From positions 1-64,000 of the forward strand of contig JAUIAM010000008.1 in the NCBI GenBank assembly GCA_030425485.1: DNA of 64,000 nucleotides, given 5' to 3'. This document shows positions 26,153 through 47,431 of this stretch, one piece after another. The DNA comes from Verrucomicrobiia bacterium. GTDB taxonomy: Bacteria > Verrucomicrobiota > Verrucomicrobiia > Opitutales > Cerasicoccaceae. How positions within the stretch are numbered: position 1 is the stretch's first letter; each line of letters begins with the position of its first letter. Below the pieces are notes generated by a model. That model saw only the letters and a program-made list of their open reading frames with translations, did no database searches and was not told where the DNA came from. A program made the position numbers and the translations under genes.

Positions 26153-26242
26153 GGAGAGGTGACAGAGTGGCTGATTGTGCATCCCTGGAAAGGATGTGTG
26201 CGGGAAACCGTACCGAGGGTTCGAATCCCTCCCTCTCCGCCA
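26153..26242 (+). tRNA. tRNA-Ser (anticodon GGA), island insertion site
   Basis: A 90-nt tRNA with the long variable arm of a serine tRNA. The acceptor arm is GGAGAGG with CCTCTCC, the anticodon stem CATCC/GGATG encloses the loop CTGGAAA with anticodon GGA, and the T arm is GAGGG/CCCTC-like with loop TTCGAAT. G73 and CCA are encoded. Its last 17 bases plus one (26226-26243) reappear with one change at 47414-47431. Confidence 0.95.
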
Positions 26243-26444
26243 CTGTTCCTGAATTACGAACTCACGGAACCAGCATTATGCTAGCGCTCCTTTATTTTTG
26301 TTTATCAGGCATTTATGAAAAACAAGAAATCCCGCATGGTTCCAGGAAGTTCGCATTTTATCGATTTCTAAAGATTTGTGATTCGAACGAGGGCCATATT
26401 TTCGCTTTATTTACGGAACCACCCAAGGAGAGATTTTCACAGGA

Positions 26445-27035
26445 TCAGGTCAATTTTCGTTTATCCAAAACCGCTTCGAAATGGGCCCATTGGTCTTCAT
26501 GGGATAGCTGAGCAATCGGCCTAAGCGTTCTTTCGGATAGCAACGCGTTCTTGGGACTCATTCCAATAACAAATTGTTGAATGTCAGGGCTCAGATTTGC
26601 GAGATTTAGGATATATCTAACGCGACGAGCTGAGAGTCCGACCTGCTGGGCGATGTCCTTGGGGGCAAGGTATGGATGTTCATCCAGTATTGATCTCCAT
26701 TCTATTGCATTTTCGAGGAGATGGCGGTTGCGGCGAATTCGAAACTTGGGAAGCTTCTGCGAATTGGGCTGTGGCTGCTTTTCCAACTGAAATGGATGCA
26801 CGAGGAAGGCTCCGGTTTTCCAGTCTTTCCCGATCAGGCCGATGATGAAGATCGAATCCATGCGGGTGCGGATGGATTTTTTATCTTCTGACTCTAAATC
26901 CTGATCCAAACCAATGACTGCTTTTGGCTGACCGCCAAAGATGCTCTGGATGTAGAATTCTACATCAATGCGGTACCATTTGACGGGCTTGTCAGACTGA
27001 GAGGCATCCAGTTCGCAGGGCAATTTATCGACCAC
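26445..27035 (-). CDS. C-terminal piece of a serine recombinase, recombinase-associated HTH region
   Basis: A 196-residue frame that starts with GTG at 27033-27035, probably not a native start. It runs in the same frame as 27036-27179, with a TAA at 27063-27065 between. The first part (PVKWYRIDVEFYIQSIFGG) and the later VGLSARRVRYILNLANLSPD and IQQFVIGMSP resemble the tail and helix-turn-helix region found with large serine recombinases in Planctomycetes and Verrucomicrobia. The family call is from memory of such proteins and needs a search. It lies 202 bp from tRNA-Ser, where an integrase relic is expected. Confidence 0.55.
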   Translation of the reverse strand: MVDKLPCELDASQSDKPVKWYRIDVEFYIQSIFGGQPKAVIGLDQDLESEDKKSIRTRMDSIFIIGLIGKDWKTGAFLVHPFQLEKQPQPNSQKLPKFRIRRNRHLLENAIEWRSILDEHPYLAPKDIAQQVGLSARRVRYILNLANLSPDIQQFVIGMSPKNALLSERTLRPIAQLSHEDQWAHFEAVLDKRKLT

Positions 27036-27179
27036 GGGGTCAATGCGTGCGATGTTGAGCTTTTAAATGAACAGCCCAATCAGCTCTTCGCGGTCTGGAA
27101 ACGGCAGTGCGTGATAGGCTTTGGAAAAGTTTTCGAGCGCCCTGGCGACCATCTCCTCAACCTGATAGAGGTATTTAAG
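27036..27179 (-). pseudogene. Serine recombinase fragment cut by an in-frame stop
   Basis: In frame with the gene piece at 26445-27035, this stretch reads LKYLYQVEEMVARALENFSK, then AYHALPFPDREELIGLFI, a TAA at 27063-27065, and KLNIARIDP. The pattern (helix, DREELIGL, then a beta strand) is that of the end of the coiled-coil region of large serine recombinases. No upstream catalytic domain is present. It is a relic. Confidence 0.5.
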
Positions 27180-27287
27180 AACGGAGCCTCAATTCTCATA
27201 AATCTAGCGCCTCAGCCAAAATCAATATCGTAAGTGTTCTTTAGTAACCACTTGACAAATATGACTCTATCGCAACATCACTGTGAC

Positions 27288-27575
27288 TTAACTTTCCTTG
27301 CGGTGGCCATTGCCATTCAGTCCTTTCAGGTGCTCGACTTGGGAAAGGTCTGCGGAGATGGAATAAGCCTTGCCGAAACCAAGCACGAGGCGACCGTCCT
27401 CAGGATTAAGACGAAATAGGTGGAAGTCTGCCATCCTTTTGAGGTGCTCGACGACGCGTCCGAATTTATTCTCAAAGCGCCCGAGGATATCTTCCCAAGC
27501 CGGACTGCCGCGTTCGACTTCGACGGACTGTGCATTGAAGGAGATGCGCTTGCGGGCGAATAGCTGCCGCTTGGG
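27288..27575 (-). pseudogene. HugZ-like (pyridoxamine-phosphate-oxidase fold) gene, 3' fragment
   Basis: The minus frame from about 27575 to a natural TAA at 27288-27290 reads KRQLFARKRISFNAQSVEVE, then WEDILGRFENKFGRVVEHLK, then ADFHLFRLNPEDGRLVLGFG and ending NGNGHRKES. The pattern (ARKRIxF, DFxLFRLxPExGRxVLGFGxAY) is that of the split-barrel heme-utilisation family. Only the C-terminal half remains, and it is joined at about 27576 to a sulfite-reductase fragment in another frame. Coordinates are approximate. Confidence 0.6.
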
Positions 27576-27577
27576 AC

Positions 27578-27960
27578 CTGATTACGCCGCAAACCGGGGA
27601 TCCGGCGGTAGGCATCGAGCCGGTACTTCTCCAGCAAAGCATCGATGACAGCACGGACTCCCGCCGCCACTCGCGCAATGATAAGGTTCTGATTAGCGGT
27701 GAGTCGGAAATCTCCCCGGTGGACCTTCGCGATCTCCCGCAGACCGATACGCAACGGCCCGCGTTTGTCGTTCACCACGCGTCCACTTTCCAGAAAAAGG
27801 GTCAGGTGATGTTTGCCGTCTGCGCCCTCTACCCAACCGTACCGGTCTCCCATGCGGGTTAACTCGAACTCGCGGGGTTTACCCAGCGCATAGCCGAGCG
27901 AGCGCCGCTTTTTTCCTTGTAGGCGCACTTTAGTGAGCGGTTGATCGGTCGTATGGAACT
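27578..27960 (-). pseudogene. cysI: Sulfite reductase hemoprotein (CysI-like) internal fragment
   Basis: The minus strand reads RRSLGYALGKPREFELTRMG, then DRYGWVEGADGKHHLTLFLE and later GDFRLTANQNLIIARVAAGV. These match the central part of the assimilatory sulfite reductase beta subunit, with the hallmark GDFRxTANQNLIIA. The start and the siroheme/cluster Cys half are missing. Upstream (about 27910-27960) the likeness continues only in shifted frames. It is a decayed internal fragment that no longer encodes an enzyme. Confidence 0.7.
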
Positions 27961-28030
27961 GCCCTTTTCGCAAACGTTGGCCAGCACGCCGAAGCACTCC
28001 AACAACACCGCGATGATGGGGCCGACGTAA

Positions 28031-45781: not shown

Positions 45782-45905
45782 TGCTAATAAGTGTTGTCTA
45801 TAATTCTTGAATCGTTAATACTAAAAAACGTGGTAATTCGTAAGATTTCCATCTTTATATAAAGTCAGCATGTGATGATCTATGACTTAAATCAAATACA
45901 GGCAA

Positions 45906-46525
45906 TTAAAGTGTCTTGGCTGAAATGGCCATGGCAGTTACGCTGTGGATCTGCATTCCATTGTTTTAGTATTACTGGCGCCATTGTAGTAAGTAGCGGT
46001 TGGTGACTCATAGGGCCGGAAGATCCCATTGATCTCCGCCACGTGCATGTCGTGAACGTGCTTTGCGATGTTCTCGTAGTAATTGACTTGGGCTTGCGTG
46101 CCCCACATGTTACGATTCCAAACACGCATACTGATTGCATTTAGATAATAGTTCGGTATTGGACTGGTTGTCCAAGTTACCGATTCATCCCAGCCGTACA
46201 TGCAGTCATAGAGAGAGAGTGAGCTACTACAGTTATTAAAGGCGTAGGATTTTTTTACACGAATAACTGCATCTGATACGGGAGAACTTTGGTCATAATC
46301 ACATAATTCGAAACGGGCGTAAACTCTGTGCAGATTGACTCGCCGGACACCACTAATCATACTACTTTGATTCGCGGTAAAATTGCTATCATTATTCCAT
46401 TCATCCGAATGGGTGAATTCCTGTATCCGTTCAACATCCGCCATTGTCAAGTGAGTCGGAGTGAACAATGTGGCAACTAAGATTAGAATACGTTGTGAAT
46501 ATTTCAGATGTTTTTGAGTGCTCAT
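45906..46525 (-). pseudogene. Relic of an 861-aa-type glycosidase with two internal deletions
   Basis: The start at 46525 encodes a signal peptide and first DNRLRE half (DAVIRVKKSYAFNNCSSSLS and WDESVTWTTSPIPNYYLNA) that match the paralogue at 40190-42775. The reading then jumps to ISMRVWNRNMWGTQAQVNYY and EINGIFRPYESPTATYYN, a piece from the start of the barrel. After a second jump and frame change it ends HSVTAMAISAKTL at a TAA at 45906-45908, which matches the extreme end of the paralogue (HSVTAMLITGTPL). Active-site residues are lost. The upstream LacI-type site at 46689 is kept. Confidence 0.8.
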
Positions 46526-46688
46526 TGAGAGGAGATGTCAGTGGTAAACAACGAAGACTGAGCGCTGGTCGAGAATATGGTAAAGTCGAAGAACACCTCT
46601 AGAAGAATAATCGCAGGCGATATGAAGTCTTTAATATTGAGATTGATGAACATACTAACCCTCAGTGTTGCATTCGATACATTCGATT

Positions 46689-46702
46689 TGCATATCCATG
46701 CA
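46689..46702. promoter_or_regulatory. Putative LacI operator TGCAT-ATCC-ATGCA
   Basis: A perfect inverted repeat with a four-base spacer, 164 bp before the start of the relic gene at 46525. It is the third copy of the site seen at 38629 and 42932. Apart from it the 46526-46739 gap shows no gene. Confidence 0.6.
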
Positions 46703-46739
46703 CAGCATGCGGTTGCTCAACTGGTAAATGCCTGCAATG

Positions 46740-47165
46740 TTATTCCAGTTGCAGCCGCCAGCGTTGCCAGAGTGTGGCGTTCAGGACGGTCCGCAGGGCA
46801 GCGTTGAGGCACTCATGGGCGTCGGATGTAACCGTGTCGGGGATACCCGATACCGCGCGCCTTGGGAGCTTTCAGGAAGCTACGCCAGTCCGTTTCGGCT
46901 TCCGAGAGCGCGGCAGAGACGCCCAGCACCATGCGTTTGCCGTCTTCGCGGCGCACGCCCATGCCGATGAGCACGGCGTAGTCGCGCACCGAACCGTCGA
47001 TACGGACCTTGATGTAAGTGGCGTCGACGAAAAGATGGGCGATCTCCGGCAGAGGGCTATTGCGCCACTGCTCGAAGGTTTCGTCGAGTTCGGCGGTCAG
47101 CCGGGAGACTTGCGTAGAGGTCACTTCCAACCCGCAGAGTTTTCCATCACGGCACTGATGCGACC
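46740..47165 (-). pseudogene. IS256-family transposase fragment, frameshifted
   Basis: The minus strand holds SAVMEN, then in the next frame LEVTSTQVSRLTAELDETFE, FVDATYIKVRIDGSVRDYAV and GMGVRREDGKRMVLGVSAAL, then after another shift DTVTSDAHECLNAALRTVLN and ATLWQRWRLQLE with a stop at 46740-46742. These are the middle part of IS256-type (mutator) transposases, including one catalytic Asp region. At least two frameshifts and missing ends make it inactive. No terminal inverted repeats were seen. Confidence 0.75.
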
Positions 47166-47413
47166 GGTCATCCTATTGAATAGTTTGATGCTATTAAATG
47201 GAACGATTGGAATAAATACGGCAAGCTTGCTCGAATAAAGCCTTCAACCCTGAGCGTTCAAAATTTGTGTGTCCTGAGAAGGCTCATGCCACTTTGAAGT
47301 ATTTCATTTTCGCCTACGCAATCGCATATAGGTCATATGAATACTGGCCTAGAAGCCAATCATCTGCCACACCCCGAGACCTAGAATTCGTTCCAAAACT
47401 GTTCGCATTTCAG

Positions 47414-47431
47414 TCCCGCCCTCTCCGCCAC
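47414..47431. other. att-like copy of the tRNA-Ser 3' end
   Basis: TCCCGCCCTCTCCGCCAC matches 26226-26243 (TCCCTCCCTCTCCGCCAC) at 17 of 18 bases and in the same direction, 21.2 kb away. The one difference (G for T) falls in the T-arm side. The match ends one base after the CCA. It marks the probable right edge of the island. Confidence 0.65.

Follow-up and report, generated by a model that had tools for sequence, protein, structure and literature searches.

A probable decayed tRNA-Ser(GGA) island with relics of a large serine recombinase in a Verrucomicrobiia genome, and putative self-splitting integrases in its relatives

The window considered here, bases 1-64000 of contig C11, belongs to the 3.8-Mb draft genome (62 contigs) of a Verrucomicrobiia bacterium from the same family as Cerasicoccus maritimus (G009); its congeners are labelled G001, G002 and G003, and further relatives G056, G205 and G007. 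An original prediction, made from the letters of this DNA, had read a 21-kb stretch of the window as an accessory island lying between tRNA-Ser(GGA) and a second occurrence of that gene's 3' end. Our data suggest that 26243-47431 is probably a decayed integrative island of a family of large serine recombinase (LSR) elements that insert at tRNA-Ser 3' ends, as indicated by remains of an LSR next to the tRNA, mirrored terminal arms, matching right ends in congeners and cargo relics held in common with a G002 island. The predicted structure is real and was named nearly right, the corrections concerning the type of integrase, the mosaic content, a rearranged flank and a right core of the GCT type. 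The window thus probably holds a tRNA island in decay whose integrase belongs to an uncommon class for such islands, and it is the apparently self-splitting LSR in its relatives that most deserves attention.

The target gene, tRNA-Ser(GGA) (26153-26242, + strand; ARAGORN, Rfam tRNA), follows nuoB in a synteny conserved in G001, G002 and G003. Its 3' end at 26226-26243 (TCCCTCCCTCTCCGCCAC), the putative left core (attL), reappears at 47414-47431 on the + strand as TCCCGCCCTCTCCGCCAC (motif search, locus comparison), in the same direction and with 17 of 18 bases identical, just as had been predicted. When up to three mismatches are allowed, three matches fall in the window where 0.06 would be expected, and three were not reached in any shuffle. 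The genome as a whole has six occurrences of this motif (N at position 5, at most one mismatch), namely in the intact tRNA-Ser genes GGA, GCT, TGA and CGA, in a truncated tRNA-Ser gene lying at the end of a contig and in the orphan copy at 47414. With only six sites, five of them tRNA-Ser genes, the 18-mer is therefore not a common repeat, a possibility that the original prediction had raised against itself.

Only 206 bp from the tRNA lies the relic of an LSR C-terminus (26448-27188, - strand; six-frame search against the G056 LSR), which carries the helix-turn-helix (HTH) part and has lost the catalytic domain. It shares 62% identity over 249 aa with the C-terminal end of an intact LSR of 712 aa in G056, a protein with Resolvase, Recombinase and zinc-ribbon domains; Pfam returns only HTH_ParB and HTH_24 matches for the relic. 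The orientation is that of the intact G056 gene, which points at tRNA-Ser(GCT) and ends 300 bp before its 3' end, and of the LSR genes aimed at tRNA-Ser(TGA) in G001 and G205. The open reading frame at 26445-27035 had a ParB-like Pfam match, and its candidacy as ParB is rejected since it represents the LSR C-terminus. This relic beside the tRNA was overlooked in the original prediction, which was nevertheless right that the island has decayed and lacks an intact integrase: at this border the integrase of the element survives as the C-terminal relic alone. No intact catalytic resolvase domain is present in the window, and because its LSR material consists of C-terminal and coiled-coil pieces only, we regard the element as a relic rather than a working element. 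Distant LSR relatives were also seen about 840 bp from the tmRNA 3' end (L285-L292, L308; deltaproteobacteria and others), and further ones have their ends within tRNA-Gln (L305) and tRNA-Asn (L328) in antisense.

The two borders share a terminal arm. On the left, GTTCCGTGAGTTCGTAATTC (26244-26270, - strand) adjoins the core as the mirror image of the right arm GTTCCAAAACTGTTCGCATTTCAG (47390-47413, + strand), which lies directly left of the core at 47414. When the arm pattern GTTCC-N3-9-GTTCGYAWTTC was scanned across 27 loci, the only hits were 26270(-) and 47390(+) in the window, the sites preceding the orphan cores in G001 and G002, and an inverted pair next to the tRNA-Ser(GCT) gene in G056. 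A second inverted motif occurs at 26349, 97 bp beyond the left arm, and such tRNA-side pairs of inverted motifs (AAWWRCGAAC type) are likewise 97 bp apart in G056, there beside tRNA-Ser(GCT), and 84 bp apart in G001. The arms of G001 and G002 are near-identical to the right arm of the window and precede orphan tRNA-Ser 3' ends (17-mers), 38 kb behind tRNA-Ser(TGA) in G001; in G002 tRNA-Ser(GGA) at 90.2 kb and the orphan core at 126.4 kb stand 36 kb apart on one contig (C88). The G002 island contains HugZ, nnrS, norB, metZ, a sulfite-reductase stretch and Wadjet-like genes (the names other than HugZ, NnrS and Rrf2 were inferred from translations). Because the arm stands at both ends of the window island and also closes the islands in G001 and G002, the window borders resemble the paired, mirrored termini of a single family of elements integrating at tRNA-Ser. 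Related tyrosine integrases stand directly right of orphan tRNA-Ser cores in G002 (C88:126443-128000, L219) and G007 (L276), which suggests that a different class of enzyme uses these cores in tandem.

The integrases of the relatives appear to be organised in an unusual manner. They are not tyrosine integrases, the LSR having a Resolvase domain (E 5e-33). In an unsplit Cerasicoccus LSR, a copy without its N-terminus in the stretch read, the frame passes through TGGCGGAG, which is the tRNA-Ser 3' end in antisense and separates the coiled coil from the HTH domain. In G001 (C1:2454531-2492133; L217, L160) an insertion of 37.6 kb at tRNA-Ser(TGA) divides the LSR gene into a 558-aa half that stands at the tRNA and runs up to the core, and a 148-aa HTH half that starts from the core at the far end; joined in frame at the 8-bp core they give 706 aa with 41% identity to the G056 LSR over 696 positions. 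All six HTH parts, from six genomes, begin in frame at TGGCGGAG (0.03 such octamers expected near the breakpoints) and stay open for 146-157 aa, and the sequence before the core varies more among the pieces than that after it (mean score 0.34 against 0.51). Two further HTH pieces, L267 and L278, do not have the exact TGGCGGAG. Taken together, we think it quite likely that this order, including Cerasicoccus, possesses LSRs targeting tRNA-Ser whose attP core is the antisense tRNA 3' end lying in frame in the recombinase gene, so that on integration the gene would be cut, its catalytic portion staying beside the tRNA and its DNA-binding HTH portion ending up at the opposite border. Each insertion would in that case disable its own integrase. 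The right-hand LSR relic of the window would then be the remnant of an N-part. This relic, which comprises the coiled-coil region of another LSR (47508-47921, - strand; 49.6% identity over 119 aa to the Cerasicoccus LSR, L277), had been predicted as a recombinase piece inside the island, a placement that must be given up as it falls outside, to the right of the 18-mer copy, and points at the orphan core. It is probably left from a tandem element that would have used the orphan core as its target. Also considered was that the island had cut a single gene into the two LSR relics, and this was ruled out since they are nearest to different subtypes and overlap.

The history most consistent with these observations would begin with a circular element, built of an arm, a tRNA-3'-end core and a second arm, which the LSR would have inserted by recombination into the tRNA-Ser(GGA) 3' end; the tRNA would thereby stay whole, with its 3' end duplicated at the distal border. 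The catalytic LSR part would afterwards have been lost and most of the earlier cargo deleted, and a polysaccharide-utilisation locus and an IS256 element would have entered later. Finally, exchange with the related tRNA-Ser(GCT) island probably supplied the right end with its G variant and hairpin unit. Such exchange between the two tRNA-Ser islands seems likely because of the GCT-type core and unit, the rearranged flank and a junction on contig C24 (3201-3222), where a hairpin unit meets nnrS (G002 nnrS, L118 about 13281) at a 15/16 match, CCATGCGC(T/G)CCGCCAC. The island presumably can no longer move by itself.

Several observations weigh against a single LSR insertion as the source of the whole island. 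The mismatched base of the 47414 copy is G, as in tRNA-Ser(GCT), whereas tRNA-Ser(GGA) has T, and the right core together with the following 109 bp, a hairpin unit (47432-47540, + strand) that is a genus-wide dispersed repeat with an LSR-derived tail, is 98% identical to the tRNA-Ser(GCT) locus and its unit on C24. The right flank, made up of an Rrf2 regulator, a porin and sulfate genes, is rearranged relative to G002 and G003, because there the sulfate operon adjoins yidC and here the yidC block is on a different contig, C48; in none of the three congeners does this flank stand next to tRNA-Ser(GGA), and none shows the empty site expected by the original prediction, all three having other DNA behind that tRNA. 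The G002 island has no arm at its tRNA side, and in a draft assembly copies of the 127-bp unit could have caused a misjoin of C11 and C24. The interpretation given in the original prediction stands in part, with the arms, the LSR relic and the congener ends speaking for a tRNA-Ser-integrated element and the GCT-type core and rearranged right flank speaking against a single insertion. The same core and unit identity underlies the strongest competing explanation, that the borders stem from different insertions, an LSR element at tRNA-Ser(GGA) on the left and a tRNA-Ser(GCT) element on the right, whose ends were joined by recombination between tRNA-Ser islands or hairpin units without ever forming one mobile unit. 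The distribution of G002-type genes fits it as well, in that the nor-Wadjet part lies behind tRNA-Ser(GCT) here, joined to a unit end at nnrS, and the HugZ and sulfite-reductase relics stay at tRNA-Ser(GGA). Yet the arm type is identical at both ends, and a core carried from a former stay at tRNA-Ser(GCT) would be expected to put G left of the crossover into attR, so we judge two insertions unlikely, though a serious competitor.

The copy at 47414 might alternatively be the border of a small cassette with tRNA 3' ends, either a hairpin unit or a GIY-YIG mini-cassette, unrelated to the 21 kb. A hairpin unit of about 118 bp, matched in all four genomes of the genus, stands behind several tRNA-Ser genes and is in places tandem (C24:3099-3208, C8:33917-34143, C4:1-205, C56:1-197), with contigs C4 and C56 ending in such units. 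The GIY-YIG cassettes (30 loci, L226-L255, found with the G001 GIY-YIG protein) have, where a tRNA lies upstream, one for Ser, Gln, Asp or Asn, usually start with GCCATTCG, whose GCCA is the tRNA end, and in several cases are closed by an exact or near-exact copy of the tRNA 3' 17-mer 446-667 bp downstream. In this order 20 of the 30 loci have a same-strand tRNA 45-431 bp upstream, a 3' 17-mer copy follows within 3 kb downstream for 9 of 47 tRNAs (a set enriched for GIY-YIG loci) as compared with a single case over three control directions, and window positions 47385-47494 are 91% identical to the end of a G001 GIY-YIG cassette plus the next unit. These cassettes are a separate, simpler case of DNA bounded by tRNA ends, and it is mainly because they carry such copies that a bare 3'-end copy is no proof of a large island. 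But no GIY-YIG remnant was seen left of 47385, the G002 island ends in the same arm and core without an adjoining cassette, and the GIY-YIG cassettes of other genera do not have this arm, which makes a cassette border an improbable account of the 47414 copy. That the 18-mer is solely part of a dispersed hairpin or GIY-YIG cassette had earlier been taken as the principal explanation, and it was overturned by the arm and by the island ends of G001 and G002. As 3' ends are common to four tRNA-Ser isoacceptor genes some copies are to be expected, but a chance match in ordinary core genome is scarcely credible given three matches where 0.06 were expected, the arms, and island genes that are mostly absent from relatives. 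Decay of one LSR island, followed by exchange at its right end, is thus the reading we prefer. In G007 (C2:about 213050, L229) an orphan 22-bp tRNA-Ser 3' end and a GIY-YIG gene adjoin nuoB, the same place that holds tRNA-Ser(GGA) in congeners of the window host.

With the tRNA islands described by Islander, the window island has in common a tRNA 3'-end target, a gene that is kept whole and a displaced 3' copy at the far end. The Islander work names tyrosine integrases as the catalyst for tRNA-gene islands (PMC4383910). Islands at tRNA genes are usually tied to integrases of that class; the difference here is that a large serine recombinase family is found on the same kind of target. From LSRs of the phiC31/Bxb1/A118 type, which likewise have the Resolvase, Recombinase, zinc-ribbon and coiled-coil parts seen in the relatives, it differs in the tRNA 3'-end target, the extra C-terminal HTH and a 17-18 bp core that copies the tRNA. 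Suicidal integrases of the SSV type are, according to a 2021 review, exclusively archaeal (PMC8371274). The split G001 LSR resembles these tyrosine enzymes in having attP inside the integrase gene and in being parted by tRNA insertion into N and C parts, whereas it is a serine enzyme of bacteria, and the window itself holds relics only. As the enzyme is a serine recombinase, the self-splitting LSR would not be a member of the SSV family but would work like one. If self-splitting is true, the suicidal strategy of archaeal tyrosine integrases would have arisen independently in a second enzyme class, in bacteria, and the joint action of the split halves would be directly testable. The use of tRNA-Ser by LSRs makes it possible to predict where islands end in a poorly studied order, and it would put on offer LSRs with natural, conserved tRNA targets. 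An open-access literature search returned no paper on split serine integrases or on GIY-YIG cassettes at tRNAs. In Escherichia coli, the 178-bp tyrT/rtT repeats are tandem units that each carry a tRNA 3'-end copy. The hairpin units likewise carry tRNA 3'-end copies, but their sequence is unrelated and they are tied to LSR tails and GIY-YIG cassettes.

Comparison with other genomes indicates that the island interior is a mosaic. Next to the LSR relic are a HugZ/PNPOx-like gene relic (27295-27568, - strand; 89% DNA identity to G002 C88, L118:10984-11257) and a sulfite-reductase relic of the G002 type (27576-27898, - strand; 96% identity to G002:C88:100233-100555; NIR_SIR_ferr domain), in the order of the G002 tRNA-Ser(GGA) island; the nor-Wadjet part of that island lies behind tRNA-Ser(GCT) on C24 of the window genome, 94-99% identical. 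The idea that the HugZ relic is ancestral chromosomal DNA and so refutes an island was ruled out, since it belongs to the G002 island, itself bounded by a tRNA copy. Beyond the relics the bulk of the island is, going by its Pfam and blastp matches, a polysaccharide-utilisation locus. An AraC-type regulator (28223-29101, - strand; HTH_18) is followed on the + strand by an enolase-superfamily dehydratase (29197-30363), a GH39-like hydrolase (30379-31884) and a short-chain dehydrogenase/reductase (31881-32675), all assigned by Pfam, and then by a glycan cluster (32952-45781; Pfam, blastp) of GH88, a CBM96/PEP-CTERM-like protein, a pilin-like protein, CBM96 proteins, a LacI regulator (38658-39692, + strand; Pfam), a GH29 fucosidase and a second GH39 (44285-45781; Pfam, blastp), which is 64% identical to the first. 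At 45938-46525 (- strand) there is an internally deleted copy of the gene at 40190-42775, matching residues 2-130 and 444-510, and at 46813-47130 (- strand) an IS256-family transposase relic (Transposase_mut, E 6e-20). The IS256 relic named in the original prediction is real. These genes are also not core genome shared by relatives, a possibility the original prediction had allowed for, as nine other genomes of the family gave no DNA match to the greater part of 27569-46525; the exceptions are the dehydratase gene (76% in G001 and G002), some hydrolase stretches and the relics.

The lower GC content that had been noted for the island holds against its flanks, with 0.507-0.566 between 27.6 and 47.4 kb and flank values of 0.585 and 0.636. 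Low values also occur at the ends of the window (0.54 and 0.49), so that composition alone is weak evidence. The Rrf2 regulator of the sulfate operon in the right flank lies at 48026-48598 (+ strand; Pfam Rrf2). A stretch of about 140 bp within the island, 27896-28036, has 73% matches on several very short G003 contigs and is probably a repeat or a piece of an insertion sequence.

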